Virus record (IMG/VR): IMGVR_UViG_3300017737_000017
Coordinates: 1 to 42,417 of that record
Origin: a virus
Strand: one strand, 5' to 3'
Length of the DNA: 42,417 bases
Position 1 is the first letter of the stretch, and every line of letters starts with the position of its first letter. Below the pieces are notes generated by a model. That model was not told the origin of the DNA and did not search any database. It worked only from the letters and a program-made list of their open reading frames with translations. A program made the translations under genes and the position numbers. Positions 3 to 40,741 of the stretch are shown here, piece by piece.

Positions 3-131
3 GGAGATGATCACGTCAGATATAGTGGAAAAACTTACCACAGAAAGAACGGTAAAATAAAGTATAACGGAAAGTGGCACGAAGAGGGGAGCAAAGCGTT
101 TCCTTGGGAAAAAGCTGCTTATAAAAAATAG
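3..131 (+). CDS. 3' end of a small basic protein of unknown function (partial)
   Basis: This reading frame is open from the window edge and stops at TAG 129-131, so only the last 42 codons are visible. The peptide is rich in Lys, Gly, His and aromatic residues and contains a tandem-like K-Y/T-x-x-x-G-K pattern (SGKTYHRKNGKIKYNGKW). It ends 4 nt before the next start, which fits the tightly packed operon that follows. No domain is recognised. The alternative frame that begins with ATG at position 1 gives only 19 codons and is less likely. Being a virion or accessory protein is inferred only from position. Confidence 0.5.
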   Translation, partial: GDDHVRYSGKTYHRKNGKIKYNGKWHEEGSKAFPWEKAAYKK

Positions 132-135
132 TAAC

Positions 136-435
136 ATGGGATATAAAATGAAAGGCTGTATGTACTCTAAAAAATCACCTTTAAAACAAAAGAAAAAAAC
201 AGTTGTAGGTGAAAACACTGATGAGTTAAAAAGAGATAAAAAAGGTAATAGCTATGCATTAAACATGTATGACCAAGCTGATGGTATAAATAAAGGTGAC
301 ACTATATTTGCTCCTGATTACAAGATACCAACTAGCTATGGTTATATAGAGGGTGGAGATTATGACGCTACGGAAACTAAAAGTAGTAAAAAAAGAAAGA
401 AAGGACCTAGATCTTACAATATAAAAACAAAATAA
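136..435 (+). CDS. Small basic protein with KMKG/KSPLKQ head, unknown function
   Basis: This is a 99-aa, very lysine-rich protein (C-terminus SSKKRKKGPRS...). Residues 4-7 read KMKG and residues 13-18 read KSPLKQ, at exactly the same positions as in the next gene (437-733). The bodies of the two proteins are otherwise unlike each other. No signal peptide or membrane segment is visible. The start is the ATG four bases after the previous stop, with no Shine-Dalgarno sequence. Position in a late operon and the shared head suggest a virion or head-internal protein, but that is inference. A KTPLKQ variant of the head occurs in the internal-virion candidate at 23917. Confidence 0.7.
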   Translation: MGYKMKGCMYSKKSPLKQKKKTVVGENTDELKRDKKGNSYALNMYDQADGINKGDTIFAPDYKIPTSYGYIEGGDYDATETKSSKKRKKGPRSYNIKTK

Positions 436-436
436 T

Positions 437-733
437 ATGACGTTTAAAATGAAAGGGTTTTTATACCCAGGGAAATCCCCGTTAAAACAACAAGGACCTA
501 TACCTGAAAAAAATCCAGATTTAATGAAAGGTGAAATGGAAGGAACGTGGGTTTACAAGGGTAAAGATAAAAACGAAAGAATTATTGATTTAGAAGATAG
601 AGCTGAGTTTGCTTCAAGCGATGCTGAAGGTGCTGAGGGCAAAGAAAAGAAGAAACACTTGGCTAATGCTAAAAAACTTCAACATGAGGCTGATATTATT
701 AGAAACAGAAAGCCAGATAAAAAACAAAAGTAA
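437..733 (+). CDS. Small charged protein with KMKG/KSPLKQ head, unknown function
   Basis: This is a 98-aa, highly charged protein. Its head again has KMKG at residues 4-7 and KSPLKQ at 13-18. The middle is acidic (DLEDRAEFASSDAEGAEGKE) and the last third is a lysine-rich helix. It starts one base after the stop of the preceding gene, and its TAA shares a base with the ATG of the holin gene, so the three genes are probably translationally linked. A second plus-strand frame overlaps its 3' half but has no independent support. Function is unknown; the common head with its neighbour could be a docking, packaging or processing signal. Confidence 0.7.
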   Translation: MTFKMKGFLYPGKSPLKQQGPIPEKNPDLMKGEMEGTWVYKGKDKNERIIDLEDRAEFASSDAEGAEGKEKKKHLANAKKLQHEADIIRNRKPDKKQK

Positions 734-1125: not shown

Positions 1126-1128
1126 ATT

Positions 1129-2144: not shown

Positions 2145-2165
2145 AAATAAATAAAAAAATAAGAT

Positions 2166-3481: not shown

Positions 3482-3498
3482 TAAGTTATCTACAATAC

Positions 3499-3516: not shown

Positions 3517-3539
3517 AAAATAAACTTAAATTAAATATA

Positions 3540-4032: not shown

Positions 4033-4037
4033 AAATT

Positions 4038-4831: not shown

Positions 4832-5051
4832 AGAGCTAATTAAAGTAGCTAAAGAAGCAATCGTTGATTCAGACGATGATATATCAGCAGATAGACTTAA
4901 AAATGCAGCTGCGACAAAGAAACTCGCTATATTTGATGCATTTGAAATACTTAACAGAATCCAAGAAGAAGAAAGCTTACTTGAAGGTAGATCACCTGAG
5001 AAAAACAAAGAGCAAGTCTTTAAGGGTTTCGCAGAAGGTAGATCAAAATGA
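4776..5051 (+). CDS. terS: Probable terminase small subunit
   Basis: This is a 91-aa helical, charged protein (GQKAVEELIKVAKEA, then KLAIFDAFEILNRIQEEESL). It sits directly upstream of the large terminase and overlaps it by 4 nt (ATGA), the usual arrangement of terminase subunits, where the small subunit recognises the DNA and stimulates the motor. There is no obvious helix-turn-helix at the N-terminus, so the assignment rests on position, size and helical content. Its start lies 56 nt inside the preceding gene in a different frame. The opposite-strand frame over this stretch looks like a shadow of it. Confidence 0.55.
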   Translation: MNIKETKKNIILAGQKAVEELIKVAKEAIVDSDDDISADRLKNAAATKKLAIFDAFEILNRIQEEESLLEGRSPEKNKEQVFKGFAEGRSK

Positions 5052-7267: not shown

Positions 7268-7268
7268 T

Positions 7269-9671: not shown

Positions 9672-9686
9672 TTTATATTTTATATT

Positions 9687-10814: not shown

Positions 10815-10841
10815 ATTATTAACCCATTAAAATATTAAAAA

Positions 10842-12287: not shown

Positions 12288-12300
12288 TAGTTAGTTTTTA

Positions 12301-12336
12301 AAAGAACCGGGGCTTCGGCCTCGGTCCTTTTTATTT
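12301..12336 (+). terminator. Rho-independent terminator after the capsid gene
   Basis: ACCGGGGC-TTCG-GCCTCGGT forms an 8-bp GC-rich stem with one G-U pair and a stable UUCG tetraloop, extended by AAAG/CTTT across one mismatch and followed by a T run. It starts 14 nt after the MCP stop codon and is one of the few GC-rich spots in the window. It probably limits read-through from capsid transcription into downstream genes. Confidence 0.9.
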
Positions 12337-23207: not shown

Positions 23208-23903
23208 ATGAGTTTTTTACTAGTAGGTGCCGCGGCTGTCGGTGTTGGCGCTGGTGTAGCTAAAGCTATATCTGGTGGTAAAGCCAAGAAAGCTGCAAGA
23301 AAAGAAGCTGCCGCCGCAAAGGCAAGGCTAAACGCTCAAAAAGAAAAATTTAAGCAGTTGGACACGTCTAACCCATATAAAGATCTTCAAAATACTATGG
23401 AGGATCTAACCGTAAACACTCAGGAAGCTGAGTTCGCGGCACAACAACAACAACAAAACCAAGCAAACATATTGCAAAACATGAAAGGGTCTGCTGGTAG
23501 TTCTGGTATTGCTGGTTTAGCGCAGGCTATGGCTAACCAAGGTTCTATGGATGCTCAGAAGTCTGCAATATCAATAGGTAAGCAAGAGTCTCAAAACCAA
23601 ATGCAAGAGAGAAGTATGGCTAGTCAAATACAAAACCAAAAAGCTCAAGGTGATATAATGTCTCGTGACATGGAAAGAAACAAAATATCAACACTAATGG
23701 GTATGGAAGCTGGAGATGTTAGTGCTGCTAACGCAAAGGTAGCTGCTGCTGATCAGAAAATGTGGTCGGGTATAACTGGGGCTGCCGGAGCTGTTACGGG
23801 TGCTTTGACTGGTGGAATGGGTGGTGCAGCTGGCGGGGCTGGTGGAATGCCTCAGATGGATTTCCAAAATCCTTTCTGGAAACAACAACCAGCAACATCA
23901 TAA
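23208..23903 (+). CDS. Probable internal virion protein (Ala/Gln-rich)
   Basis: This 231-aa protein has a glycine/alanine-rich hydrophobic N-terminus (LLVGAAAVGVGAGVAKAISG). A long helical Ala/Lys/Gln/Met-rich middle includes a QQQQQNQ run near residue 80, and a second Gly/Ala-rich segment lies near residues 185-215 (GAAGAVTGALTGGMGGAAGG). The end is aromatic (DFQNPFWKQQ). Such proteins are typical DNA-ejection (internal virion) components of podoviruses, with membrane-active glycine/alanine helices. It precedes two further candidates for the internal core. Assignment is based on composition and position. Confidence 0.6.
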   Translation: MSFLLVGAAAVGVGAGVAKAISGGKAKKAARKEAAAAKARLNAQKEKFKQLDTSNPYKDLQNTMEDLTVNTQEAEFAAQQQQQNQANILQNMKGSAGSSGIAGLAQAMANQGSMDAQKSAISIGKQESQNQMQERSMASQIQNQKAQGDIMSRDMERNKISTLMGMEAGDVSAANAKVAAADQKMWSGITGAAGAVTGALTGGMGGAAGGAGGMPQMDFQNPFWKQQPATS

Positions 23904-23916
23904 TAAAATATAAGAT

Positions 23917-25179
23917 ATGAAAAAGAAAACACCTTTAAAACAAATGGATTCTGGTTTAGTAAACGCTTATAAAGAAGCTATGATGTCTGAAGTTCCACGT
24001 GGAGATGCTATGGGTAAAGGAATGGATGCCATAATGGATATGGCTAGTGGAGTTGTAGACAAAGCTTGGCAAGATAAGAACGCTGCTAGGGACAAAGAAA
24101 AAGAAAGAGTAAGACTAGCCAAGGAAAAAGGAGATAAAGTTGCTCAAGCTACTTTAGATATGGGAGGTTCTTTGGGTAAAAGTACTTTTGATAGTTGTTA
24201 CCCAGCTGTAGAGTCTATTCAAGCTGAGTACGATGAAGCGGTTAAAAACAACGATAAAAAAGCTATGGCTATGGCTATGCAGAAACTAAACGAGTTTAGC
24301 GCTACAACAGGTAGTTTAAAAGAGCTTAACAGTGATGTCGCTTTAGCTAAAAAAGAAAACGATTTATCAGCTAATTGCAAGCCAGGTGGAAGAGAAGATA
24401 CTATACTCACGAGTTTTTTAGATGATTCTACGAAAAAAAGAGTTAGTGCCAACGATGATGGAATGCAGATGTTTGAGTATGAAGTCGAGATTGATGGTAA
24501 GAAAGAGTGGGTTACACACGACGATGTTAGCAACATACTTGAGAAAAATAGAACTGACCACGAATCTATAGCTGATGTTAGGGATTTAATAATACAAGCT
24601 GGAGATGCTGCTGATGATGAGAATAGAGCTGGAAAAGAGTTCAATGATTATGACGAGGTTAGGACTACCTCTAAGATGAATACTATAATAAAAAAGGGCA
24701 AACTAAACTCTTTGTTGTATGATGATGTTTTAGAAAATGGAGAGCCTTTTGTTGATGCTATATATGAAAATCCAGAGATAAAAGGTATGACTTACGAGTC
24801 TCTTGGATTAACGCAAAAAGATATTGCTGCTAAGGTTGATACTAATAACGATGGTGTGATACAGGAAAATGAAGCTCAAACATTGCTAGAGCTTGGTCAT
24901 AAGGATATGATTGTTGACGCTTTAATTAACTCTGACAACCCTAACTTTGATGAAGAAAGAACTAGAGGCGTTATGGCTAACTACTTTAGCACGGCTGTAA
25001 AGCAACAATATGGAAAAAATAAAAACAAAGGTAAACAAACAACACAGGTAGATAATGCGGCTGATGGAACTATGTATCAAAAAAATAGTGATGGATCTAT
25101 GTCACCGATGAGCCCAGCAAGCGATCAATTTAAAAACATGACAACAGAAGAGTTGTTAGCTATGTATCCAACAAACTAA
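23917..25179 (+). CDS. Probable internal virion protein with EF-hand loop
   Basis: This 420-aa, mostly helical, charged protein begins MKKKTPLKQ, a close variant of the KSPLKQ heads at 136 and 437. Residues 308-319 read D-T-N-N-D-G-V-I-Q-E-N-E, a complete canonical EF-hand loop (Asp 1, Asn 3, Asp 5, Gly 6, Ile 8, Glu 12), flanked by helices, so calcium binding is plausible. The C-terminus is low-complexity with Met/Ser (SPMSPASDQFKNM). Placement between the Ala/Gln-rich protein and the 3387-aa polyvalent protein suggests an internal core or ejection role. No enzyme motif is seen. Confidence 0.65.
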   Translation: MKKKTPLKQMDSGLVNAYKEAMMSEVPRGDAMGKGMDAIMDMASGVVDKAWQDKNAARDKEKERVRLAKEKGDKVAQATLDMGGSLGKSTFDSCYPAVESIQAEYDEAVKNNDKKAMAMAMQKLNEFSATTGSLKELNSDVALAKKENDLSANCKPGGREDTILTSFLDDSTKKRVSANDDGMQMFEYEVEIDGKKEWVTHDDVSNILEKNRTDHESIADVRDLIIQAGDAADDENRAGKEFNDYDEVRTTSKMNTIIKKGKLNSLLYDDVLENGEPFVDAIYENPEIKGMTYESLGLTQKDIAAKVDTNNDGVIQENEAQTLLELGHKDMIVDALINSDNPNFDEERTRGVMANYFSTAVKQQYGKNKNKGKQTTQVDNAADGTMYQKNSDGSMSPMSPASDQFKNMTTEELLAMYPTN

Positions 25180-25186
25180 ATTAAAT

Positions 25187-28100
25187 ATGACTAGAGAACA
25201 ATTAGGAGAGGTACTTCAAAAGATGGCTGCTGATGGACAGCCAAAAGAAAACATGGATAAAGTCGCTGCTCATTACCAGGGCGTTATAGCGAAGTCAAAA
25301 GAAGCAGAAGAAAACCCTCACAAAAACTCAGATGGCACTTGGAAAACAGTTGCCCAAATAGAAGAGGAACAGTTTGGAACAAAAAAAGAAAAAGGCTCTC
25401 AGACGACCGATGCGACTGTAGAGCCTCAAATAGTATCCGAAGGTACGGAATCACCATCGGAAGATGGTTCATCGGAATCACAACCTCAAGGTTATCAGCC
25501 TAATACCCCAATAACAGATGGTGGTTACGAATATAAGTTTGATGTAAACAAAGATGGCTTAGGTGTTTACTATACTAGAAAGGTAGGTGAAAATGACTGG
25601 ATAAACGTTTCTGAAACTCAACCTGGTAGTGCGGCTGAAGTTTCTATAGCTAGTGAGTTTGGGCACGCTGATTTTGATAAGTCCGCATACTTCAAACAAA
25701 AGAAAGAAATAGAAAAGCAAAAAGAAGAGGAGGAAAGAAGAACATCAAACCCTACGTCATTCGCTGATATAGGTATGACTAAAGATTTAGATGGTAGTTT
25801 ACTACAGGGAGATTTTAGGTACGTTTTTGATAAGAATGATCAGAAATGGTACAAACAACCTAAGCATGGTATACCTGTAATGGCTGTTAATCAAAAAGGA
25901 GATGAAGTGTCTGAAGAGCTAGTAAGCCAAATAAACTCTTTACATAATGATGGTCAAGCTTCTTCTATAGGTATTAAAAAAGAGGGTGATATGTCTAGCT
26001 ACCTGTATGCGCCGATACCTCCAATGCCTCTCGATATAGACTTAAACGTTACTTCTAAAAACGATTGGGAAGGAGCATTACACACCCAAATGAGTGGTGA
26101 TGATGCTAACAGGGAATCTATTAGAATAAAATCGTTAGGTTATGATGATGAGTTTGATATAAGAAACACCAAGACTTGGGTTAACATGGAAGAAAGCGCT
26201 TTTGAATCTGCTATTGAAAATGCTTACCCAGGTATTTCTGTAGAACAAACTGGAGCGGGAAACGCTGCTTATATATCGGTTCCTTGGAGTGATAAAAAAA
26301 TATACGTAGATTTAAAACCAGAAGATGGTTTGTTTGGTAGTTCTAATGATGAGGTAGACAAGGTGTTAAGAAATTTTAAAAGAAGATACTTAGAAGAAGT
26401 AGAGTCTGGTAAGATAAATAACTCTTTGTCACAATTACTAAACACTAGAGGCACGGGTGATACATTTGTTGAGAGCGATGTTGTTAAGTTTAATGATATG
26501 GCTAAAGAAATAGATGGTTTAAACTTAAGCGTAACAGAAAAGTTTCAGTACGATGGCGCTGGTGATATGATTGCTGGTTATGAGGTTTTTGCTGGAGGTG
26601 AGACAAAATGGTTTGAAACAGCACCTGAGGTAAACAATTTTATATACGAAAACATGTCTAGCGAAGACGTAGCAGCTATACATGCTCACGAGCTGAAATT
26701 AAAAACAAGCTTAATAAAAGAAAGAGAAACTTATGTAGATGATAAGTACGAAAGCCTTGAAAGAGAAGAAGTTTTAGAGACGTTTTACAAAGACTCATTA
26801 CTACCAACCATGATGTTTGACCTTGGAGAAAGTGGCAACCACAGCGGTATGTCTCAAGAGGGTATGGCTATTGTTAAGAACTACATGGAGGTACCACTGA
26901 AAGAAAAGAAGATGGTACCAAATCCTATACAAAAACCAGGGCAACCACCATTGGTTGAGGGCGAGGTAACCGTAGAGGACTGGGAGAGAAAGAAGTACGA
27001 GGTTATAAAGTCTGAAATGAAAAAGAAGCTTTCACCAAAAGATTATGCCTTATTTGAAGAGTACATATCCAAAGGAGATATACTTGGTACTGAAAACATG
27101 AATAAGACTAAGTTGAAAATGGCTGAAGATAGTGGCAAGTCATGGACAGAAAGACAGCTAGACAAAGGTAATAAGTCTATAATAAAAGATAATGTAAACA
27201 AAACCTTAGCAAAGTTAAACAGAGAAAAAAATGACATAGGCATTAAGGTTAAAAAAATGAACGAGTCTTTTAAATTAGACGTTAAAAGACTTAATGTTGT
27301 TAAAGAAAACTTAGCTCTAACAATTAGAGATTCTGGAGCAGGCGTAACGGTTACTGGTGAAGGAGACAATATGGTTATGACTGTTTCGCACCCAGACGCT
27401 GAGGTTCAGAAAAAACTACAAGCTCAGCTAAACGACTATCAGAGAAGTCAAAAGACAATAAGTAGTGAGTATAAAACAACGTATGAAAGCGTTATGGGCC
27501 AACACGATAGTTGGATGAAAAAAAATATGCAAGATCTTAAGACAAACCAAGATCTTCAAGAGTTTACTTCTAAAGAGTATGATTTTAGAAAGATAATAGG
27601 GCAAGAGTTTACTGATGGTTTTGAATCTATGGCGTTTAGTATACCAGCTATTTTTGGAAATGATTACTCTATAGATAGGGTTAACGAGGTCAATGCTTCT
27701 AAGTCAAATTTAAAAACAGCGTTAACTTATGATCAAGCCGTGGAGTTTGGTGAAAAAGGAGAGTTTGCTCTTAGAACAACAGCATCTCAAGGTGCCAACA
27801 CTATAGTTGCTATCGGGTCTAGTATGTTGGGTATACCACCTGTATGGAACACAGCGCTACTAGCGACTTCTTTTGGTTTATCAGCTGGTGGCCAAACTAG
27901 AGCTGATCTTACTAACAGAGTTAAAATGGGTGAGGAGGCAGATGAAATGCTTACTAAACTAGAAGAACAATATAAATCAGGAAGTGTACCTTACGAGCAG
28001 TACAGAGAATCTAAGTTAGCTTTACAAAAAACAATTGCAGCAGGCGATATATCACCAACTCAACTTTTAGGCGCAACTTGGACAGCTGCGGCTATAGAAG

Positions 28101-31100
28101 GTGGTGTTATGGCTGTGCTAGGTACTATACCTAACTCCATGAAACTTGTTAAAGATTTTTCTGGAAGCATAGATGATATAGGTAGAGTTGTAACAAGAGG
28201 TAGGTTGGGGTTAGGTTACGATATAGCAAAAGGACTTACAACCACTATTGGAGGTGAAGTATTAGAGGAAACAATAATATATGCTGGAAATGAGTTTTCT
28301 CAAAACATGATATTAAATGGTAATTTAAAAGATGCTGACTGGTCACAGTTTGACGACACTTTTGTTACCTCTGTTATTATGTCTGGACCAATGTCTGGAC
28401 CAGGTGTTCTTTATTCTAACGTTGTTGGTCATGTACAAACAAAGCAGGCTAGAACTGTTTACAACGATGTTATGCAGAATGTTAGTAAGATTGAGAACAT
28501 GATGAAGAATCTAAAACCTGGGGACGTTGTTGGTAAAGAGCAGTTAGCTGTTGCTTGGAAAACTGAAATGGAAAAACTAGGTCCTATACAGTCTGGTATG
28601 GAAACAGATGCTATAAATCTTGGTTCTGATAAGTTGAAAAACTTAATTAAAAATAATATAAATTTAACGCAGTTACACTCTGAAGCTAATATAAAACCTA
28701 CTGATTCTGAAGCTACCAAAGAGGCTAAGATAAAAGATCACGTTGAAGGTTTGAAGGGTGAGGAAAAATCAAACTTTGAGGATAGATTAAAACTAGCAAA
28801 CGATAACATCAACAAAATAAAAAGTAGTGTTGACTATGGTAAGGAAGGTACCGCTATGGATTACGATGTTAATCCAGAAACTGGAGATGTAAACGGAGGT
28901 ATTATATATAACATGTTTGGAAGTCTAGGTATTGAAGTAGGTAACGCCTTAGCTAAAAAAGATCCTAAGTTTGAAAAGCTATCAAACAGAGAGCAAGCTG
29001 GTTTAGTTTTAGAAGAAATAAAAAATAGACAAGTAAAAGCAAACGACAAAAGAATAAGAGACAACAAAGCTCAAGTCGAAGCTGTAGAAAAATCTGTGTA
29101 TGATGGTTTAACTTGGGAAGAGTGGAAAAACAAAAATAACAAGAAAAACAGAAGAAAGGCACAAGAAGATGCTGAATACACTAGAAGATCAAACTCTTTA
29201 CTAGCAAATGAAACAGAAGCTGTAATAACAGCTACAGAGCAAAACAATAACGCTAAGTCAATTCTTGGGGACGAAAGACTAAAGTCACTACAAATATTAA
29301 ATCCAGACAATGGTGATACTGACGGTAAGTTCACTAAGGAAGAAATAGAAATGAAGATTAGGGAAGAACTTTCTGATAATCCAGCTGAAGCAAACAGAAT
29401 AATACAGGGCTTAAGAAAAGGTAGTACAAATGGAGTTATAGTAAACAATAAGTACATTGCTTTAAATCCTGAGGCAGCTAGAGAACAAATGAAAAACGGT
29501 AATCTTTTAGCTGGTACTGTTTTATCACATGAGATAAGTCACTTTATAGATGATGCTGTAATGACAAAACCTCAAAGAGTGGATTATGCTAACAAACTAA
29601 ACGCTTACATGGCATCTGAAATGCCAGCTATAGATAGAGAAGCTATACATCTGTTAGAAGGATTAGCTGATGATAGTCCAGCTAAATGGGAGAGTGGAGT
29701 TCCTTTTGAAGGTCAATCACCTACAGTTAAAGATGAGTACACTAAAAGAGTGCAAGACGTTTTGCAGCAAGATAGAAACGCTGTATACAAGAAAAAAGTT
29801 CAAAAACAAGGTAGAGGTGTTGGTAAAAACGTGATGAGTTTGTTTAACGCTGATTTTAATATAAAATCACCTAACGATGCAGCTGCTTGGGTTGGTAGTT
29901 ATTTAACTGGTTTTGAAAATGGTGAGCTAGGTAAGTTGCAAAAAAGAAAGTTTGATAACACTCAAGCTCAACAAACAAATGATCAGGGTTTCAGAGAGTC
30001 TAGTAATCTACAAGGAACACTAGACACTAGATCACAAAATCCGACAAAAAGAGACGTTGGAAGAATGGTTGACGAAATGATAAGTTTAAAGCCTAACGGT
30101 GACTATGTTGAGGCTGGAGGTTTACTTCAATCAGAGTTAGGTCAACAGTTAGGTGGAATGATGGAGAACACAACTAGAAGACTTTACGATAACATACCTG
30201 ATGATGCAAAACGCACGGTGTCTAGGAATGATTATAAGGAGGCTTTACTGATGGACGCTTATAGTATGATCAAAAACGAATACGATCCATCTAAACAAGA
30301 TCTAGACGCCTTTGTTAGTAGTAGGTTAAATTTAAGAGCAAACGCTTTGGCAACGGCACTAGGTATAGAATCTTCTATAGAAGAAGGTGGCGGTGGAATA
30401 GCTTTAGATGCTAATGAAGTTAAAGATTTAGAAGGTGATTTAGGTATAGACGATGTTTTGAATATTGAAACAATTGAAAACCCTACATACCCGCTAACAG
30501 ACAACATGGTTATGTCTAACGCTGATGCTGAAAACGTTAATAACTCTATACTATTAAGCGTTGGTACTGAGCTACCAGCTATAGATGCTCAGGTTAGTAA
30601 AAATAAATTTACAACACCGTTTATAGCTGCGCTTAAAAAAGCTTTTGGCGTTAAGGGTGGACCATTGCACGTTGCTGTTCAAAACATGATGGGTAAAACC
30701 CCAGCTGAAATAGATAGATTTTTAACAGATCCCGTTAACAAACAAGCGATACTAGATGCTTTACCAACAGGTTGGTTGTCTAAAAACATTCCAGCTGCTG
30801 TTGAAAAATCTGTTAATGGAACTAGAATAGATAGTGAAGATGGTAAAACAACTATACTAACACCTAACTGGACACCTGATTGGAAGGGTCAGAAAATAGA
30901 TAGATGGAACGCTAAAGACGAAGGTCCTTATAGAGGTAACACTGCTGGACCGCCTGTTGTGCGTAGAAACCCAAAAGCTATAGAAACAGTTTCTAATGCT
31001 GATCTTAGAAGTAAGTTTGTCAAAGGTAAAACTATGACTGAATTAAATCGTAATGGTTTGACTAAGTTGCAGTTAGCTATAGCTCAAGAAATAGGGTTAG

Positions 31101-34100
31101 AGCTTTTCAAGAAAGATATTAAAGCTGACGGCCCTTTAACAGAAGTGTTTAAGCAAAGGCAAGATGTGTTTGATAGAGTTTTAGCTGAAAACTATGCTGA
31201 AGAAATATCTAGGCAAATGGAAAGAGGTACAGCTAAGTTAAGTGAAAATCCAGAGACAGAGCTAAATATAACTAGAGGTAGTGTCATAGTAGATGAGGCT
31301 AACAACTTAGTTAAAGAAGTTATACAAAACTACAATAAAGACTTACAGTTTGGTGGATTAGAAGCTGCTTTAGCAAACTACTCTCCAGAGATGATAAACG
31401 CTTTTGAGTCTATGGGTATATTTGAAATGTTTAACACTGATACTAAGCAAGGTTTTGTTAAGCCTACCAAAGCTATGGATTGGTTAAGTTTTGAAAACCA
31501 AAAAGCGGCATACACTGATAACGGTACTCAGAGCACATTCATGAAAGATCAACAAGCTAAACAAGCGGAGGTTATGATAGATATACTACCTCCACAGGTT
31601 GTTAGAGTTTTAGGTAAAGAGTTTTTTGGCATGACTAGCGCTAGACAGCTAGACGCAGCTAGAAATAAACAAGATGGAACGCAAGGTAAGTACGTATACT
31701 TAGACGATAAGCTTATACGTAAGGCGGCTAAAAAAGATACTAATGTAAAACTACCTTTTGATCCTTTAAAGCTTGAGATGTTAAATTCTGGAAGTGGACT
31801 AATGGTTGATATACAAAAAATCCAAAACATGGATTTAACTGTAGAAGAAAAGCAAAAAAGACTAGAGGCTTTACAGCCAAGAATAGACGATGCTAATGCT
31901 AACAATAAGAAGTTTTTAACTTGGTACGCAACTCAAAATGCTATCGCTATAGCTAAAAACCCAGATTTAGCAATTGGCCTTGCTGGTCAAATGCAGGGAG
32001 CTACTAATAACGTTAAGGGTTTTAGAGCTTACACTAATCTTGGTATGATAAAATTACAGAAAGGATCTCAAGCTCCTTATCTAACAAGAGCTGGTAAACC
32101 AACTAATGTAAAACCTACAAACAAAAACGGTGGTTATATAAATAGAAACCATCCAGACTTTACAAGAGCGTTAGAGCTTGCTGACGGTAACGAAACTAAA
32201 GCAGCTGGTTTGCTAAAATACAAAGGAGAACATATAGATCCTAGTGCTAACGTTATGCAAGAGCTATTTGCATCTACACTAGAATTAGCAGATATATTAA
32301 AAACTACACCAGAAAAATATCACGATAAAATAGTAAGAGAACACCAAGCTAAGATGGATAACATCTTAACTAACTTTGATCAGTCTCTTGGACCTATAAT
32401 AGATTCTAAAATACAAGATAGTAAACTTGGTTCTACTAGTAGATTAGGTTGGGCTAGAAACTTTTCTGTTTCTGATCAGATTAAAAACTACTACAACACT
32501 AATGATGGTGGTGGGGTTGATAATGTTATAAAATCAAGAACTACTCAAACGCTACAGGTTTTATCTCAAAAAGCTAGAATAGGTAATGAAATAGTTTCTA
32601 AAGCAACACAGGTTGCTAGATCATCAGAAAATCCTACTAGAGGTATAACCGTATTAGACTTTGATGACACACTAGCTACTAGTAATTCTTTGATTAGGTT
32701 TACTAGACCAGATGGAACTACAGGAACGCTTAATGCAGAACAGTACGCTAAGACGTATGAAGAGTTAACTGACTTAGGTTATAAGTGGGATTTCTCAGAG
32801 TTTAACAAAGTTGTTGGTGGTAAAATAGCTCCATTGTTTCAAAAAGCATTAAAACTACAAGGCAAGTTTGGTCCTGAAAATATGTTTGTATTAACGGCTA
32901 GGCCACCTCAAGCTGCTAAGGCTATATTTGATTTTTTAAGTGCTAACGGTTTAAACATACCTATGGAGAACATAACTGGCTTAGCTAACTCTACAGCAGA
33001 AGCTAAGGCGTTGTGGATAGCGGATAAGGTTGGTGAAGGTTATAATGACTTTTACTTTGCTGACGATGCTTTGCAGAATGTACAAGCTGTAGATAACATG
33101 TTAGAACAATTTGATGTTAAACGTAAAGTACAACAAGCGAAGTTAAGTGAAAACCCTTCTGACGCTTTTAATGTTATACTTGAAGAAACAATGGGTGAAG
33201 GTCGTGAGAAAATTTACTCAGAGGCAAAAGCCCAAATACGTGGTGCTGAAAAAGGTAAGTATAAATTCTTTATACCACCATCAGCAGAAGACTTTAAAGG
33301 ACTGTTATATAGTTTTCTTGGTAAAGGTAAAAAAGGAGAAGCACACATGGACTTTTTCCAGAAAACACTAATACAACCCTTTGCTAGGGCACAAAGAGAA
33401 CTTGATTCCGCTAGGCAGTCTATATCTAACGACTACCAAGCGTTGAAAAAAGACTTTAAAGGAGTTACAAAAAATCTTAACAAAAAGATGCCTGGAAGTG
33501 ATTATACTTTAGACCAAGGTATTAGAGTTTTGTTATGGGATAGAGCCGGCTTTGACATACCTGGTTTATCTAAAACAGATAAAGCGGAAATATTAAAAGC
33601 TGTTAACAACAACCCGGATGCAGTTCAGTTTGCAAACACACTTAGTTTAGTTTCAAAACAAGACAATGGATATTCTAAACCTGGAGATTTTTGGACAACC
33701 GAGAGTATAGCTAGTGATCTTAACGACATAACAAATACTATTGGTAAGGATCAATTCTTAACAGAGTTTAAAGAAAACAGAGAGCAAGTATTTGGTAAGT
33801 GGGTTGGTGGAAAGCTAGTTGGACCTAACATGAATAAGATAGAGGCTTTGTATGGAAGTAGGTTTAGAGAGGCTTTAACAGATATGGTCTGGAGAATGGA
33901 GAACGGTAGTAACAGAAACTTTGGAAGTAATAGACTTACAAATCAGTTTGCTAACTGGGTAAACAACTCTGTTGGTGCTATTATGTTCTTTAATGCTAGA
34001 TCCGCTGTGCTACAAACTTTATCTTCTGTTAACTTTATAAACTGGGGAGATAACAATGCTTTTAAAGCTGCTAAGGCATTTGCTAACCAACCTCAGTTTT

Positions 34101-35350
34101 GGTCTGACTTCGCTAGAATATTTAACTCAGACATGTTAAAACAAAGAAGGTCTGGTTTAAGAACCGATGTATCACAATCTGAAATTGCACAAGCAGCTGG
34201 AAAAGGTGGTAACAAAGTAAAAGCTGTTATGGCGTACTTGCTTAAAAAAGGATTTTTACCAACACAAATTGCGGATAGTTTTGCTATTGCTTCTGGTGGT
34301 GCTACTTTCTTTAGAAATAGAACAAAGACTTATATGGATCAAGGTATGAGCAAGGCGGATGCTGAATCAAAAGCTTTTATTGATTTTCAAGAAATAGCTG
34401 AAGAAACACAGCAGTCATCAAGACCTGATTTAATATCACAACAACAAGCATCTCCACTTGGTAGGCTTATATTAGCTTTTCAAAACACACCAATGCAGTA
34501 CGCTAGACTTACTAAAAAATCTGTTTTAGATCTAGCAAACGGTAGAGGTGATTTTAAGACTAATGTTTCTAAAATACTTTACTACGGAGCTATACAAAAC
34601 GCTATATTTTCTAGTTTGCAAAAAGCAATGTTTGCGTTTGCATTCGATGATGATACTGACGAAGAGAAAGAAAAGCAAAAAAGAAAAGAACTTCAAGTTT
34701 TAAACGGTATGGTAGACTCTCTACTAAGAGGTATGGGTGTTGGTGGCGCTATTGTTTCTACCGCTAAGAATATGATAATGGCTTTTGCTGAACAAAACAA
34801 TAGTAGAGACTTTGACTATTCAGAACCTTTGATAGCTATGCTTAACCTATCTCCTCCAGTTGGATCTAAGGCTAGAAAAATATTGTCAGCGGGTAAAACG
34901 TTTAAATACAAGAAAGATGAAATAATGTACATGGATAAGTTGGACATCGATAATCCTATGTGGAACTCAATAGGTAACGTTGTTTCATCTACAACCAATA
35001 TACCTTTAGATAGAGTTATAAATAAGGTTAACAACTTAAAGGAAGTTATTGACCAAAGAAACTCTGCTTGGCAGAAACTAGCTTTATCTCTCGGTTGGAA
35101 CACTTGGGATCTTGGAGTAGAAAATGAAGAGTTTAACGAGGCTGAAAAAGAAGTAGCTAAAATTAAGAAAGAGAAATCAGAGGCAAAAAGAAAAGCTAAA
35201 AGAGAAGAACAAAAAAGACTTGAAGAGATAGAAAGAAAGAAAAAAGAAGCTCGAATGGTTCAATGTTCTGCTAGAATTAGAAAGGGTAAAGGACCTCGAT
35301 GTAAAAATAAAACAGAAAACAAAAATGGAAAATGCTATGCGCATCAGTAA
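25187..35350 (+). CDS. Giant polyvalent virion protein (metallopeptidase, HAD-like, LPD38, zinc finger)
   Basis: This is a single uninterrupted 3387-aa frame. Two Y-x-F-D-x-N repeats lie at about 115-130 and 207-222, and a charged helical part follows. Two hydrophobic Gly/Ala stretches at about 865-905 and 957-985 may touch membrane. H1448-E-I-S-H1452 is a zinc metallopeptidase motif. A sigma-region-2-like helix lies at about 1685-1730. A HAD-like domain at about 2487-2650 has DFDDT at 2491-2495, LTAR at 2569-2572 and D2626-D2627. An IPPSAEDF-type region (about 2690-2760) and an LPD38-like region (about 2925-2990) follow. The end is a coiled coil and a C3360/C3372/C3383/H3386 zinc finger resembling DUF5763. 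Polyvalent proteins of this kind are thought to be ejected with the DNA and to act on host targets. No RNA polymerase motif was found. Confidence 0.85.
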   Translation: MTREQLGEVLQKMAADGQPKENMDKVAAHYQGVIAKSKEAEENPHKNSDGTWKTVAQIEEEQFGTKKEKGSQTTDATVEPQIVSEGTESPSEDGSSESQPQGYQPNTPITDGGYEYKFDVNKDGLGVYYTRKVGENDWINVSETQPGSAAEVSIASEFGHADFDKSAYFKQKKEIEKQKEEEERRTSNPTSFADIGMTKDLDGSLLQGDFRYVFDKNDQKWYKQPKHGIPVMAVNQKGDEVSEELVSQINSLHNDGQASSIGIKKEGDMSSYLYAPIPPMPLDIDLNVTSKNDWEGALHTQMSGDDANRESIRIKSLGYDDEFDIRNTKTWVNMEESAFESAIENAYPGISVEQTGAGNAAYISVPWSDKKIYVDLKPEDGLFGSSNDEVDKVLRNFKRRYLEEVESGKINNSLSQLLNTRGTGDTFVESDVVKFNDMAKEIDGLNLSVTEKFQYDGAGDMIAGYEVFAGGETKWFETAPEVNNFIYENMSSEDVAAIHAHELKLKTSLIKERETYVDDKYESLEREEVLETFYKDSLLPTMMFDLGESGNHSGMSQEGMAIVKNYMEVPLKEKKMVPNPIQKPGQPPLVEGEVTVEDWERKKYEVIKSEMKKKLSPKDYALFEEYISKGDILGTENMNKTKLKMAEDSGKSWTERQLDKGNKSIIKDNVNKTLAKLNREKNDIGIKVKKMNESFKLDVKRLNVVKENLALTIRDSGAGVTVTGEGDNMVMTVSHPDAEVQKKLQAQLNDYQRSQKTISSEYKTTYESVMGQHDSWMKKNMQDLKTNQDLQEFTSKEYDFRKIIGQEFTDGFESMAFSIPAIFGNDYSIDRVNEVNASKSNLKTALTYDQAVEFGEKGEFALRTTASQGANTIVAIGSSMLGIPPVWNTALLATSFGLSAGGQTRADLTNRVKMGEEADEMLTKLEEQYKSGSVPYEQYRESKLALQKTIAAGDISPTQLLGATWTAAAIEGGVMAVLGTIPNSMKLVKDFSGSIDDIGRVVTRGRLGLGYDIAKGLTTTIGGEVLEETIIYAGNEFSQNMILNGNLKDADWSQFDDTFVTSVIMSGPMSGPGVLYSNVVGHVQTKQARTVYNDVMQNVSKIENMMKNLKPGDVVGKEQLAVAWKTEMEKLGPIQSGMETDAINLGSDKLKNLIKNNINLTQLHSEANIKPTDSEATKEAKIKDHVEGLKGEEKSNFEDRLKLANDNINKIKSSVDYGKEGTAMDYDVNPETGDVNGGIIYNMFGSLGIEVGNALAKKDPKFEKLSNREQAGLVLEEIKNRQVKANDKRIRDNKAQVEAVEKSVYDGLTWEEWKNKNNKKNRRKAQEDAEYTRRSNSLLANETEAVITATEQNNNAKSILGDERLKSLQILNPDNGDTDGKFTKEEIEMKIREELSDNPAEANRIIQGLRKGSTNGVIVNNKYIALNPEAAREQMKNGNLLAGTVLSHEISHFIDDAVMTKPQRVDYANKLNAYMASEMPAIDREAIHLLEGLADDSPAKWESGVPFEGQSPTVKDEYTKRVQDVLQQDRNAVYKKKVQKQGRGVGKNVMSLFNADFNIKSPNDAAAWVGSYLTGFENGELGKLQKRKFDNTQAQQTNDQGFRESSNLQGTLDTRSQNPTKRDVGRMVDEMISLKPNGDYVEAGGLLQSELGQQLGGMMENTTRRLYDNIPDDAKRTVSRNDYKEALLMDAYSMIKNEYDPSKQDLDAFVSSRLNLRANALATALGIESSIEEGGGGIALDANEVKDLEGDLGIDDVLNIETIENPTYPLTDNMVMSNADAENVNNSILLSVGTELPAIDAQVSKNKFTTPFIAALKKAFGVKGGPLHVAVQNMMGKTPAEIDRFLTDPVNKQAILDALPTGWLSKNIPAAVEKSVNGTRIDSEDGKTTILTPNWTPDWKGQKIDRWNAKDEGPYRGNTAGPPVVRRNPKAIETVSNADLRSKFVKGKTMTELNRNGLTKLQLAIAQEIGLELFKKDIKADGPLTEVFKQRQDVFDRVLAENYAEEISRQMERGTAKLSENPETELNITRGSVIVDEANNLVKEVIQNYNKDLQFGGLEAALANYSPEMINAFESMGIFEMFNTDTKQGFVKPTKAMDWLSFENQKAAYTDNGTQSTFMKDQQAKQAEVMIDILPPQVVRVLGKEFFGMTSARQLDAARNKQDGTQGKYVYLDDKLIRKAAKKDTNVKLPFDPLKLEMLNSGSGLMVDIQKIQNMDLTVEEKQKRLEALQPRIDDANANNKKFLTWYATQNAIAIAKNPDLAIGLAGQMQGATNNVKGFRAYTNLGMIKLQKGSQAPYLTRAGKPTNVKPTNKNGGYINRNHPDFTRALELADGNETKAAGLLKYKGEHIDPSANVMQELFASTLELADILKTTPEKYHDKIVREHQAKMDNILTNFDQSLGPIIDSKIQDSKLGSTSRLGWARNFSVSDQIKNYYNTNDGGGVDNVIKSRTTQTLQVLSQKARIGNEIVSKATQVARSSENPTRGITVLDFDDTLATSNSLIRFTRPDGTTGTLNAEQYAKTYEELTDLGYKWDFSEFNKVVGGKIAPLFQKALKLQGKFGPENMFVLTARPPQAAKAIFDFLSANGLNIPMENITGLANSTAEAKALWIADKVGEGYNDFYFADDALQNVQAVDNMLEQFDVKRKVQQAKLSENPSDAFNVILEETMGEGREKIYSEAKAQIRGAEKGKYKFFIPPSAEDFKGLLYSFLGKGKKGEAHMDFFQKTLIQPFARAQRELDSARQSISNDYQALKKDFKGVTKNLNKKMPGSDYTLDQGIRVLLWDRAGFDIPGLSKTDKAEILKAVNNNPDAVQFANTLSLVSKQDNGYSKPGDFWTTESIASDLNDITNTIGKDQFLTEFKENREQVFGKWVGGKLVGPNMNKIEALYGSRFREALTDMVWRMENGSNRNFGSNRLTNQFANWVNNSVGAIMFFNARSAVLQTLSSVNFINWGDNNAFKAAKAFANQPQFWSDFARIFNSDMLKQRRSGLRTDVSQSEIAQAAGKGGNKVKAVMAYLLKKGFLPTQIADSFAIASGGATFFRNRTKTYMDQGMSKADAESKAFIDFQEIAEETQQSSRPDLISQQQASPLGRLILAFQNTPMQYARLTKKSVLDLANGRGDFKTNVSKILYYGAIQNAIFSSLQKAMFAFAFDDDTDEEKEKQKRKELQVLNGMVDSLLRGMGVGGAIVSTAKNMIMAFAEQNNSRDFDYSEPLIAMLNLSPPVGSKARKILSAGKTFKYKKDEIMYMDKLDIDNPMWNSIGNVVSSTTNIPLDRVINKVNNLKEVIDQRNSAWQKLALSLGWNTWDLGVENEEFNEAEKEVAKIKKEKSEAKRKAKREEQKRLEEIERKKKEARMVQCSARIRKGKGPRCKNKTENKNGKCYAHQ

Positions 35351-36392
35351 AATACTAATATTATTTTTAGTGCTATCAATTAGTACTAAAGCACAAACAA
35401 ATTTTGACGAGTTTTGTAAAAAGACTTTTAAATTTTCAACATTTTATATTGCTGCTAACGGAGGTACTTCTGTTTCAGATGTAGATGTTTTCTCCGTAGA
35501 GAATGGTCTTGAAACTTCTATAGTAAAAACACCTTACGACTACAACTTAGCTATGGGTATACGTAAGATAGCTAGGTTTGGTTATGAAAACAAGGCAAAC
35601 ACTTTTTATGACGGCACAGAGGAGTCTTGGTCTGACGGCGCTAATATAGGTAAAGTGCCTGGTTTAGAGTTTTTATTTGAGGTTGATTACACTAGACAAC
35701 AAGGGGATACGTATCTAGATCAGCATCATTTCCTGAGATACGTGGGTGATAACTATATTATAAAAGGAGAGTACCTTGAAGACGGTTTTGCTGATATAAA
35801 ATACTTTGAAACGTCTGAGAGATACAGGTATAAAATTGGTAAAAAATTCTCTTTGAACTTGGGTTTAGCTCAAAGGTTGTCAGAACCGTATGGTTACGAT
35901 CCATTAGAGCAATGGGTTTTAAGCAACGGAGATATACACTATACATATCTAGCGCTACAAGAAGGATATAACGTTGATGTTTACAACGGTGAATATTTTG
36001 ATCCTTCAGGAAATTTAGTAGCTACAAGTAAAGAAGTTTGGGAATCTGTGATTATACCTAAAGCTCTGTCAGATTACTCTGAAAGAAAAAGAAACGAGCT
36101 AGAAAACAAGATGCTACAATCGCTTGTTGTAGGCTTTGATTTTTATCATTATAAAAAAGATTTTTGGTTTCACGCGTGGGCAAGCTTAATGCCTTACCAT
36201 TATGATGATGGAGGTAGTTATACTTATCACAAGTACAATAACAACGAGCAGTGGTATGACTACTCTGGTGGAACTATATTCGGCTACAAATATAATAAAC
36301 ATTTAGGTACTTTTGTTGAAGGTAAATACAATAAGTATTGGAACAGAGAGTGGTATGATTTTAAATTAGGAATAAATTACGTAATATTTTAA
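35337..36392 (+). CDS. Secreted probable outer-membrane beta-barrel protein
   Basis: The product is 351 aa from the ATG at 35337 (355 aa from the alternative start 35325). I prefer 35337 because it gives a classic Sec signal peptide, MRISKILILFLVLSISTKAQ, cleaved near KAQ as in Flavobacteria. The mature part is rich in aromatic residues and alternating strands (KFSLNLGLAQRLSEPYGY, FWFHAWASLMPYHY) and ends LGINYVIF, a terminal Phe as in outer-membrane barrels. It begins inside the 3' end of the giant gene (14-nt overlap). Family not recognised. It could act in superinfection exclusion, as a receptor-like decoy, or in outer-membrane disruption during lysis; none of these is shown by the sequence. 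Confidence 0.7.
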   Translation: MRISKILILFLVLSISTKAQTNFDEFCKKTFKFSTFYIAANGGTSVSDVDVFSVENGLETSIVKTPYDYNLAMGIRKIARFGYENKANTFYDGTEESWSDGANIGKVPGLEFLFEVDYTRQQGDTYLDQHHFLRYVGDNYIIKGEYLEDGFADIKYFETSERYRYKIGKKFSLNLGLAQRLSEPYGYDPLEQWVLSNGDIHYTYLALQEGYNVDVYNGEYFDPSGNLVATSKEVWESVIIPKALSDYSERKRNELENKMLQSLVVGFDFYHYKKDFWFHAWASLMPYHYDDGGSYTYHKYNNNEQWYDYSGGTIFGYKYNKHLGTFVEGKYNKYWNREWYDFKLGINYVIF

Positions 36393-36676: not shown

Positions 36677-37000
36677 ATGAAAAAATTAATTTTAATAACG
36701 ACTGTACTTTGTAGTAACATGGCTTTTGGGCAAATGAAAGCCGTTCACTTTAACGCTGATTGGAACACTGATAACGGTGTTGAGTGGTTTGAAAAACTTT
36801 CAGATGTAAAGAAAGAGCACATGGACATCGGACATGGCGACTGTCAATCTAAATATAAAATAGCTATCGTACCAACAATACTTATTTTTAAAGATGGCGA
36901 GGAGGTTGCTAGATTTCAAGCCGATCTTAGCTTTAAAATGTTAGCTACAAGAAAAGAAATACAAGCAGAAATAGATAACCAATTAATGAGCGATTTTTAA
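36677..37000 (+). CDS. Periplasmic thioredoxin-fold protein lacking the CxxC site
   Basis: This is a 107-aa protein with a signal peptide (MKKLILITTVLCSNMAFGQ, residues 1-19) followed by a short thioredoxin fold. The strand KAVHFNADWN (21-30) sits where thioredoxins have FWAxWCxxC, but here both catalytic cysteines are replaced (N-T-D-N). The second half keeps the cis-proline signature IVPTILIFKDGEEVARF, with P66. The only cysteine in the mature part is C56. It is therefore predicted to be periplasmic and redox-inactive, perhaps a binding or chaperone version. It lies 6 nt after the membrane coiled-coil gene and abuts the adhesin gene at 37001. Confidence 0.75.
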   Translation: MKKLILITTVLCSNMAFGQMKAVHFNADWNTDNGVEWFEKLSDVKKEHMDIGHGDCQSKYKIAIVPTILIFKDGEEVARFQADLSFKMLATRKEIQAEIDNQLMSDF

Positions 37001-38893
37001 ATGAAAAAGATATTACTTTTAACAATTTTACCTTTTTTAATGTTTGCACAGGGACCTGGTCCTTGTGTTCCTATATTAATAAACATAAACTTAGATCAAT
37101 ACCCTAGCGAGACTAATTGGGATATCAAAGATAATTATGGTTCTATTGTTTTGTCCGGTGGGCCTTACGATAGTGTACCAAGCTATCAGCCTCAAATGAT
37201 AATGAACTGCTTGCCAGTAGGTCAGTTTACATTTACTATATATGATCAGTATGGTGATGGCTTACAAGGCTCGCTTTGGGGAGGTAACGACGGATCGTAC
37301 TACGTGATTCAGTGTGGAGATACCTTGGTTTACGGTAACGTACCAGACTTTGGGACAGATTCCACTCACATGTTAATGTCTGACACGTGTATTCCACCTC
37401 CACCAATTCCAGGCTGTATGGACGAAGATTATTTAGAGTTCGACCCAGCAGCCACAGTAGATAATGGTAGTTGTTTTACCTTAAAAATATACGGGTGTAC
37501 AGATAGTACAATGTTTAATTATGATTCTCTTGCCAACCACTTAGATTTTGTTGATCAATGCGATTACACTTTAATATTAAAAGATTTGCTAGGCAATGCT
37601 TGGATCGGTTCATATTTAGAGATAAGACAAGGAGACACAGCTTATCAGTTTCAAATGGATTCACTTGGTCCAGAGCAACATTTTGATATAGTGCTAGACG
37701 CTCCAGAGCCTTTTGAAGTAGAATTTTTTGTTGTACAACAGGCTAGCGGAACTACGATAGAGTGTGGTTTTGAAATAATAAACCCAATAGGAAACACAAT
37801 TATAGATATACCACCAACTCAACTAGATGCCTTTGTTGTTTATCCTGGTTTTGCTTATTGTGGTGATGGTTGCGAGTCTTATATATTAGGTTGTTTAGAC
37901 ACAGCTGCTGTGAACTGGAATTTTTATGCCAACACCTCTGATAGCTCTTGCTACTACCTACCCGGTTGCACTAGCCCAGCGTATTTAGATTATCACGTAG
38001 ATACTACAAATAATATTTTTAGAGATTACCATGTTCAGGATAGTTGCTTAGTTTTAGCAATGTTTGGCTGTATGGATAGTTTAGCTTTTAACTATGATAG
38101 TTTGGCTAATGTAGATAACGGTGGTTGTTTACCTGTTGTTACGGGTTGTATGGATGCTTTTGCTTTTAATTACAATTCTAACGCAAACACTCCCGATACT
38201 TGTATACAAATAATATATGGCTGTATGAGTAGTATAGCTTTTAACTACGACTCTCTAGCTAACACAGATGATGGTAGTTGTATTGAATTTATATACGGTT
38301 GTACTGACTCAACAATGTTTAATTTTAACCCTCTTGCTAATGCTGACGATAGTGGCTGTACTCCTTTTATACTTGGCTGCACGGATCCTTCTATGTTCAA
38401 CTATGATGTTTTGGCGAACACTGAAGATTTTAGTTGTATTCCTTTTTTATATGGATGTATGGATTCCAATGCACTTAATTATGACTCGACTGCAAACACA
38501 GATAATGAAAGTTGCATTGAAATTGTGGTTGGCTGTATGGACCAATCTGCTTACAATTATAATAGTTATGCTAATTTTGACGATAGCTTTTCTTGTCTTT
38601 TCGATGCTAATTGTATTTCTGGTCCTGGAAACCCCTACTGGCTCAATGATGATTGTTATGCGTGGGTAATAGATGTAGATGAGTATTGTTGTGATGTTGA
38701 GTGGGACGAGATATGCCAACTTACTTACAATTACTGTGATAGCACTTATGTTGGTCCCTTACCTAAAAGATTTATAAACAAAAAATTAATATCAATTACA
38801 GATATACTAGGTAGACCTTCTAATATTATTAAGAACAAATTGTTGTTCTACCTATATGACGATGGAACTGTTGAAAGAAAAATAAAATTATGA
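37001..38893 (+). CDS. Secreted cysteine-rich repeat adhesin with T9SS-like C-terminal domain
   Basis: This 630-aa protein has a signal peptide MKKILLLTILPFLMFAQ (1-17) and a first beta domain at about 18-132 (FTIYDQYGDGLQG core, as in Bacteroidetes surface proteins). It carries 11 copies of a G-C-M/T-D-x-x-A-x-N-Y-D-x-x-A-N-x-D-x-x-x-C unit; seven are consecutive at residues 356-535 with a ~26-aa period. A YCCDVEWDEIC module lies near 562. The last ~44 residues (KLISITDILGR, then LLFYLYDDGTVERKIKL) match the style of type IX secretion sorting domains. The protein should leave the cell through Sec and T9SS and be displayed or released. It overlaps the next gene by 4 nt (ATGA). This is unusual cargo for a phage. 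Confidence 0.8.
   Translation: MKKILLLTILPFLMFAQGPGPCVPILININLDQYPSETNWDIKDNYGSIVLSGGPYDSVPSYQPQMIMNCLPVGQFTFTIYDQYGDGLQGSLWGGNDGSYYVIQCGDTLVYGNVPDFGTDSTHMLMSDTCIPPPPIPGCMDEDYLEFDPAATVDNGSCFTLKIYGCTDSTMFNYDSLANHLDFVDQCDYTLILKDLLGNAWIGSYLEIRQGDTAYQFQMDSLGPEQHFDIVLDAPEPFEVEFFVVQQASGTTIECGFEIINPIGNTIIDIPPTQLDAFVVYPGFAYCGDGCESYILGCLDTAAVNWNFYANTSDSSCYYLPGCTSPAYLDYHVDTTNNIFRDYHVQDSCLVLAMFGCMDSLAFNYDSLANVDNGGCLPVVTGCMDAFAFNYNSNANTPDTCIQIIYGCMSSIAFNYDSLANTDDGSCIEFIYGCTDSTMFNFNPLANADDSGCTPFILGCTDPSMFNYDVLANTEDFSCIPFLYGCMDSNALNYDSTANTDNESCIEIVVGCMDQSAYNYNSYANFDDSFSCLFDANCISGPGNPYWLNDDCYAWVIDVDEYCCDVEWDEICQLTYNYCDSTYVGPLPKRFINKKLISITDILGRPSNIIKNKLLFYLYDDGTVERKIKL
38066..38596 (+). repeat. Seven tandem Cys-rich repeat units inside the adhesin gene
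   Basis: Seven consecutive units, each starting with a G-C-M/T codon triplet and ending in a Cys, recur every ~78 bp (25-27 codons). They are diverged at nucleotide level but share G-C at the start, N-Y/N-F in the middle, A-N and the final C. Four more diverged units lie upstream in the same gene (from about 37412). Paired Cys in each unit suggests a disulfide-stabilised rod after export. Confidence 0.8.
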
Positions 38894-40285: not shown

Positions 40286-40741
40286 ATGATAAGCAAACAC
40301 ATAAGCGACAAAGAAGGTGTTTACAGCAATACCGCTATTAGAAGAGGTATAGACAATACACCTACAGATGATCACCTACACTTTATGCAAATAATTGCTA
40401 ACGAAATATTTGAACCACTTAGAGAGTATGTTGGTGGACCAATAAAAATTAATAGCTTTTATAGATCGCCAGAGCTTAATACCGCTATTGGTGGCTCTAA
40501 AACCTCACAACACTGTAAAGGTCAAGCAATGGATATAGACGATACCTTCGGTCACATGACTAATGCTCAGATGTACGAGTGGATTAAAGACAACTTAGAT
40601 TTTGATCAAATGATTTGGGAGTTTGGTAATGATAGCAACCCTAATTGGGTTCACATTAGTTATGTTTCTGCTGAAAAAAACAGAAACAGATGTTTAAAGG
40701 CATACAAAGAAAACGGTAAAACAAAATACAAAGTAATTTAG
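40286..40741 (+). CDS. Endolysin, M15-type zinc peptidase
   Basis: This 151-aa protein has the peptidase M15_3-type metal site: S-Q-H76-C-K-G-Q-A-M-D83-I-D, and W121-V-H123 near the C-terminus. H76, D83 and H123 are the probable zinc ligands. The SFYRSPELN stretch (about 53-61) is a typical substrate-binding segment of these enzymes, which cut peptidoglycan cross-bridge or stem peptides. There is no signal peptide, so it needs the holin at 733 to reach the cell wall. It is the last sizeable gene of the plus-strand block. A virion-associated role (tail peptidase) is possible but less likely given its small size and lack of extra domains. Confidence 0.85.
   Translation: MISKHISDKEGVYSNTAIRRGIDNTPTDDHLHFMQIIANEIFEPLREYVGGPIKINSFYRSPELNTAIGGSKTSQHCKGQAMDIDDTFGHMTNAQMYEWIKDNLDFDQMIWEFGNDSNPNWVHISYVSAEKNRNRCLKAYKENGKTKYKVI

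Follow-up and report, generated by a model that had tools for sequence, protein, structure and literature searches.

The window analysed here, a stretch of 42,417 nucleotides corresponding to a 42.4-kb virus record, carries a single uninterrupted frame with an ATG start that encodes a giant protein of 3387 amino acids. The locus raises the question of how the virus uses such a protein, as one chain or as a set of separate products. A first-pass annotation had proposed an injected multi-enzyme. Its description of a 3387-aa one-frame protein with HEISH at residues 1448-1452, HAD motifs DFDDT (2491-2495), LTAR (2569-2572) and D2626-D2627, and a Cys3His finger at the very end (C3360-C3372-C3383-H3386) was confirmed in every one of these details. 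The features are listed below (numbers in brackets indicate residues of the giant protein).

23208..23903, + strand: 231-aa ORF rich in Ala and Gln, its hydrophobic ends rich in Gly and Ala; may encode a small ejection protein, from composition and position only
23917..25179, + strand: 420-aa ORF directly upstream of the giant gene; candidate second ejection protein, from position only
25187..35350, + strand: giant ORF of 3387 codons; putative polyvalent polyprotein that would be injected and process itself, syntenic with other phage giants
27569..28444, + strand: hydrophobic domain (795-1086), common to the virion proteins phi38:1 gp101 and phi18:3 gp123
29204..29986, + strand: zincin-like metallopeptidase region (1340-1600), from invariant residues and model core
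29528..29542, + strand: HEISH (HExxH) motif (1448-1452), conserved in relatives
29735..29737, + strand: E1517, proposed third zinc ligand, invariant in 20 relatives
30029..30043, + strand: linker S1, RSQNP (1615-1619), after the zincin; candidate cleavage site (S1-S3 z 6.2, S1-S4 z 6.0)
30104..30412, + strand: sigma-factor-region-2-like segment (1640-1742), tentative, from family profile against PDB
31235..31252, + strand: linker S2, KLSENP (2017-2022); candidate cleavage site, from the blind scan (S2-S4 z 7.2)
32618..32635, + strand: linker S3, RSSENP (2478-2483), just before the HAD domain (S3-S4 z 9.6)
32636..33139, + strand: HAD phosphatase-like domain (2484-2651), from invariant residues, model and Foldseek HAD matches
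33140..33157, + strand: linker S4, KLSENP (2652-2657), just after the HAD domain, from within-protein similarity tests and blind scan
33164..35146, + strand: helical C-terminal region (2660-3320), from 46-55% identity in relatives, model and BFVD matches
35264..35344, + strand: CCCH finger (C3360-C3372-C3383-H3386), from residue positions; kept or doubled in relatives

Gene context and link to the virion

The virus is a flavophage-type podovirus, and the giant gene closes its structural module. Terminase and portal were closest to those of MW202828 (Manatee Spring), Maribacter phage Panino, Flavobacterium Elemovirus and Cellulophaga and Tenacibaculum phages, and the gene order over the whole span between the GroES-like gene and the giant gene is conserved. 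Since terminase, portal and gene order are all flavophage-like, the host is probably a flavobacterium or another member of the Bacteroidetes. The habitat of the virus is marine. Matches to genome contigs were discarded as a source of host information; they led only to metagenome bins of mixed naming and probably represent stray phage contigs.

Giant genes syntenic with that of the 3387-aa protein are present in MW202828 (3859 aa), Elemovirus (gp18, 3694 aa), phi38:1 (gp101) and phi18:3 (gp123). The 1935-aa gp123 is encoded by the last structural gene of phi18:3 and its annotation derives from MS/MS, while phi38:1 gp101 was annotated by similarity to phi18:1 gp101, which is named structural. 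Plain BLAST did not link the 3387-aa protein to phi38:1 gp101 or phi18:3 gp123. When an iterated HMM was seeded with residues 780-1110, phi38:1 gp101 was detected at E 1e-6 in round 1, improving afterwards to 1e-30 or better, and phi18:3 gp123 was reached in later rounds; none of the reversed-sequence decoys matched this HMM. The shared hydrophobic domain (795-1086) is a candidate part of an envelope channel. In four relatives the first ~130 residues of the giant frame, as computed from match coordinates, contain a cell-wall hydrolase domain, an SLT transglycosylase in L127 and L181 and a GH108 hydrolase in L166 and L173, in keeping with an ejection protein that passes through the cell envelope. 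By analogy with the Cellulophaga proteins, the 3387-aa protein is likely to be carried in the virus particle.

The position of the 420-aa ORF resembles that of phi18:3 gp121, a virion protein by MS/MS; a Pfam scan of the 231-aa ORF gave no match. Elsewhere in the window, the 1791-aa virion protein at 14904-20279 (+) matched the Pfam crassvirus muzzle protein (E 1.7e-18) and its C-terminal domain (E 1.1e-8), a profile match that links these flavophage podoviruses to the Crassvirales. Downstream, an ORF at 35325-36392 (+) overlaps the end of the giant gene by 26 bases; it has a signal-peptide-like start, an aromatic-rich, outer-membrane-barrel-like tail and no Pfam match. Signal-peptide-like starts were also seen in a 107-aa protein (36677-37000, +), whose weak thioredoxin match (E 0.002) is below the curated cut-off, and in a 630-aa protein (37001-38893, +) with repeats of the type GCMDxxAxNYNxxANxDDGSC and no match in Pfam or PHROG. 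A Peptidase M15 domain (E 8e-16) at 40286-40741 (+) marks a probable endolysin, and the C-terminal part of a ribonucleotide reductase (41111-42415, minus strand) is truncated where the record ends.

Domains of the giant protein

Searches of IMG/VR with TerL and with the C-terminus yielded over 580 related stretches, in which the giants range from 2032 to 4134 aa. Residues ~2460 to 3320 are kept at 45-55% identity in ~90 relatives, whereas few relatives match the remainder of the protein; the modules upstream of the HAD domain vary strongly. No cultured phage in the collection had a clear relative of the conserved 2460-3320 stretch, and in tblastn against cultured phages the main part of the protein found no relative and the C-terminus one weak match. 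Pfam, PHROGs and PDB sequence searches with the whole protein returned nothing useful, and residues 2200-2470 had no PDB match.

The zincin-like region was recognized by conservation. Exactly one HExxH motif was found in 85 of the 87 relatives with 2000 aa or more (1.4% in composition-preserving shuffles) and in 33 of 34 held-out relatives. Among 20 relatives of the same zincin subtype H1448, E1449, H1452, D1455, E1517 and D1524 are invariant, so that the HExxH motif is accompanied by a proposed downstream acidic third ligand (E1517), as is characteristic of zincins. An Asp three residues past HExxH and a downstream Glu have been described for metallopeptidases of phage polyvalent proteins (Iyer et al. 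2017, PMC5512222). In the AlphaFold model the core had pLDDT above 90; HExxH lies on one helix and E1517 on another, further along the chain. Neither a Foldseek search of PDB with this model nor a profile search against PDB gave a match. Judged from the conserved residues, region 1340-1600 is likely to be a protease and would bind zinc. As a separate observation, HExxH occurs twice in the MW202828 giant (741-12320, minus strand), at residues 1612 and 2497, each time in the HEFGH form.

In the HAD domain D2491, D2493, T2495, T2570, K2607, D2626 and D2627 were invariant in 56 aligned relatives, which covers HAD motifs I-IV. The model of residues 2455-3340 had a mean pLDDT of 71. In a Foldseek search of PDB with this model the HAD phosphatase effector Ceg4 ranked best (probability 0.92, E 0.5), followed by a class C acid phosphatase and a deoxyribonucleotidase-like protein, with zero matches at E <= 0.001. 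HAD profiles run against PDB sequences produced only a chance match to a thioredoxin fold. Domain 2484-2651 is likely to be a phosphatase.

In eight relatives (L111, L112, L138, L160, L168, L186, L190 and L194) a P-loop kinase (AAA_33 E 1e-9, Zeta_toxin-like) is inserted between HAD motifs I and II with a constant spacing of 277 residues; L301 and probably L120 likewise have a P-loop kinase in the HAD domain. This insertion makes a nucleic acid or a nucleotide a plausible substrate of the HAD domain. The 3387-aa protein itself has no P-loop kinase, and identification as a polynucleotide kinase-phosphatase was therefore rejected; in a comparison of the kinase profile with PDB, similarity to Pnkp was non-significant (E 0.28 or worse). 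In T4-type polynucleotide kinase-phosphatase, as in the eight relatives and L120, a HAD phosphatase occurs together with a P-loop kinase, but in the relatives the kinase is nested within the HAD domain, flanked by its motifs I and II. Other insertions at the HAD cap site were noted in L144 (near residues 1640-1850), L151 and L146, which exceed the usual length by 136, 67 and 22 residues, respectively.

When a profile of the 250 residues past the zincin was compared with PDB, sigma factors ranked at the top (best E 0.0017). A tighter profile matched a sigma factor at E 1e-4, with RpoS, RpoH, FliA, SigK, SigA and RpoD all at the same place. The 3387-aa protein joins this profile group through L138, and Pfam scans of the group members detected no sigma domain. 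Because the segment was chosen partly by its YDP motif, its resemblance to sigma factor region 2 is regarded as tentative. Alpha-CTD matches beside the sigma-like matches (E 0.03) were too weak to claim.

The C-terminal region had been described as LPD38-like. At the level of sequence this found no support: the LPD38 Pfam model had no match at E <= 1 in the 3387-aa protein and 27 relatives, and hmmscan agreed, but since the LPD38 controls were silent as well, the search shows only the absence of a sequence match. The predicted fold, however, does resemble that of phage polyvalent proteins. A search of BFVD with the C-terminal model gave 54 matches at E <= 0.001, many of them phage proteins named PolyVal, ART-PolyVal or 'large polyvalent protein associated' (query TM mostly ~0.3-0.5), and one a structural protein of Gundel_1 (query TM 0.20). 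The likeness to polyvalent proteins therefore rests on fold. Four of the matches, A0A218MMX7, A0A218ML07 and A0A218MLT5 from uncultured viruses and A0A7S9STY3 from Virus NIOZ-UU157, belong by fold and 35-54% identity to the same C-terminal family; they are uncharacterised entries, one of which is named UDP-GlcNAc kinase, probably after a P-loop kinase. An early assumption that the C-terminus is shared with the giants of MW202828, Elemovirus and phi38:1 was dropped when profile comparison showed no homology. The terminal CCCH finger is kept in ~40% of the relatives, some of which have two copies.

Linkers that co-vary within one protein

A likeness between the linkers on the two sides of the HAD domain (S3 and S4) was first noticed by eye, before testing. 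The motifs differ from relative to relative and recur within each, e.g. FSRS twice, SIEYTE plus SIEYSE, or MYSK twice. Among 53 nonredundant proteins the best six-residue similarity between S3 and S4 was 16.8 within a protein versus 13.3 +- 0.41 between proteins, a value reached in none of 2000 permutations, and seven control segment pairs stayed within two standard deviations. In a blind scan, 45-aa windows were compared with the post-HAD linker. Only three other places responded: HExxH+125..195 (z up to 5.9), HExxH+525..620 (z up to 4.7) and HAD-50..-5 (z 9.3), corresponding in the 3387-aa protein to RSQNP at 1615, KLSENP at 2017 and RSSENP at 2478. Linkers at four places are thus more alike within one protein than between proteins, with z up to 9.6.

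In pairwise tests five of the six site pairs gave z 3.4-9.6, the exception being S1-S2 (z 1.3), and nine controls had |z| <= 1.7. The effect persisted when redundancy was cut to 35%, and it was also seen in members lacking the usual FS-type motif; about half of the members have no obvious [FYM]S at S1, S2 or S3. When the windows were fixed and 27 held-out nonredundant members were tested, the result was replicated for S2-S3 (z 4.0), S2-S4 (z 4.4) and S3-S4 (z 5.1). Pairs involving S1 were weak in this set (z 0.9, 1.7 and 2.8), in which one control reached 2.5.

Likeness of this kind might be a trace of recombination, if short repeats allowed module exchange and the linkers were copied within a protein. 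Modules upstream of the HAD domain do vary strongly among relatives, and giants that are otherwise similar can carry different hydrolases at the N-terminus. However, codons agreed at 76 of 140 identical linker residues, as against 72.3 expected from each protein's own codon usage. As agreement is no higher than expected, the likeness does not appear to be one of DNA, selection on the protein is the simpler explanation, and recombination is very improbable as the origin of the linkers.

Of five regions compared, the zincin was the one whose similarity between proteins best predicted how alike the linkers are across sites (r 0.167, partial r 0.134, p 0.001); C-terminal similarity failed to predict this (r 0.019, p 0.38). 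The Mantel effects are small, as would suit cleavage of the same architecture by a host protease or a separate phage protease, the resident zincin then being an effector directed against host proteins, a role that zincins of polyvalent proteins may also have (PMC5512222). An outside protease is nevertheless improbable, given that the motif varies between proteins, is similar at the sites of any one protein and follows the zincin of that protein. Co-variation of the linkers suggests a self-cleaving polyprotein, and the protein-level signal together with its tracking of the zincin fits cleavage by the resident enzyme. Zincins have been proposed to process polyvalent proteins, and P1 DdrB is cited as cleaved before packaging (both PMC5512222).

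A case that counts against self-processing is the N4 virion RNA polymerase, which has a similar zincin and yet is packaged uncut, even though the zincin region is needed for encapsidation (PMC5512222). By this example the 3387-aa protein would be an unprocessed ejection protein, injected intact, its zincin and HAD domains acting on host targets and its linkers serving as docking or unfolding signals; alike linkers could bind one shared, co-evolving partner. Intact injection is unlikely in our estimate, as none of the other tested regions tracks linker similarity as well as the zincin does, and the sites fall at domain borders. The reading that we hold to be somewhat more probable than not is that of a virion-carried, co-injected polyvalent polyprotein which is cut at its linkers by its own zincin. 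The injected multi-enzyme of the first-pass annotation survives in part: the conserved HExxH and HAD domains, the polyvalent-like C-terminal fold and a gene position at which the Cellulophaga giants are virion proteins by MS/MS speak for it, whereas LPD38 and a PDB fold for the zincin were not recovered. Absent from that annotation were the co-varying linkers, the sigma-region-2-like segment, the hydrophobic domain and the kinase insertion of relatives.

For the self-cut polyprotein the following course can be envisaged. The N-terminal part, which is headed by a hydrolase in some relatives, and the hydrophobic domain would help to cross the cell envelope. The internal zincin-like metallopeptidase would cut at RSQNP, KLSENP, RSSENP and KLSENP to release five products: the envelope part with the zincin (residues 1 to ~1615), the sigma-region-2-like part (~1616-2017), a third product (~2018-2478), the HAD phosphatase (~2479-2652) and the helical polyvalent C-terminus with the zinc finger (~2653-3387). 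These are predicted product borders, the exact cleaved bonds being left unspecified. Packaging, cleavage, the bond cut, its timing (assembly or post-entry) and the activities of the products are what we infer. A more far-reaching version, in which the self-cutting injected polyprotein frees further effectors besides a sigma-like factor and a HAD phosphatase (joined in some relatives to a polynucleotide-kinase-like domain), and in which co-evolution of protease and sites has produced a cleavage code private to each lineage, is speculative and rather doubtful.

Comparison with known systems

Cutting of polyvalent proteins by zincins was proposed in 2017 and few supporting cases were found. Cut sites can now be predicted to residue level in dozens of related proteins, which makes the 2017 proposal directly testable, and the varied linker motifs would give a natural set of matched protease/site pairs. 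If the reading is true, abundant uncultured viruses deliver a timed effector set from one gene, and the possible sigma-like part would immediately divert host RNA polymerase. In the open-access papers searched, co-varying cleavage sites were not found to be reported; what is new here is the within-protein likeness of four linkers, co-varying with the zincin.

The Cellulophaga giants phi18:1 and phi38:1 gp101 and phi18:3 gp123 resemble the 3387-aa protein in gene position and hydrophobic domain. They differ in being half its size, in having neither an HExxH nor a HAD motif that could be found, and in their C-terminal region, which was unmatched in profile comparison. N4 vRNAP and the crAss-like virion RNA polymerases and cargo proteins are alike in size, in virion-gene position and in the idea of protein injection (PMC5512222; PMC10172136), and N4 vRNAP contains a zincin (PMC5512222), comparable to the zincin-like region here. 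Unlike in these polymerases, no RNA polymerase domain was recognized in the 3387-aa protein when its sequence was searched against Pfam, PHROGs and PDB, and identification as a virion RNA polymerase was rejected for want of such a domain.

From the polyvalent proteins of PMC5512222 the 3387-aa protein is set apart by three traits. It has no Pfam LPD match, it contains a HAD domain, a term that a word search did not find in the text of that paper, and it has co-varying linkers, which the available part of the paper does not describe. Phage-type polyvalent proteins are otherwise alike in size, HExxH domain, variable effector modules and C-terminal fold (PMC5512222). With several domains of disparate activity (HExxH, HAD, hydrophobic, helical C-terminus) joined in one long phage protein and with the C-terminal fold of known polyvalent proteins in BFVD, the 3387-aa protein is classed here as a variant of the phage polyvalent proteins.
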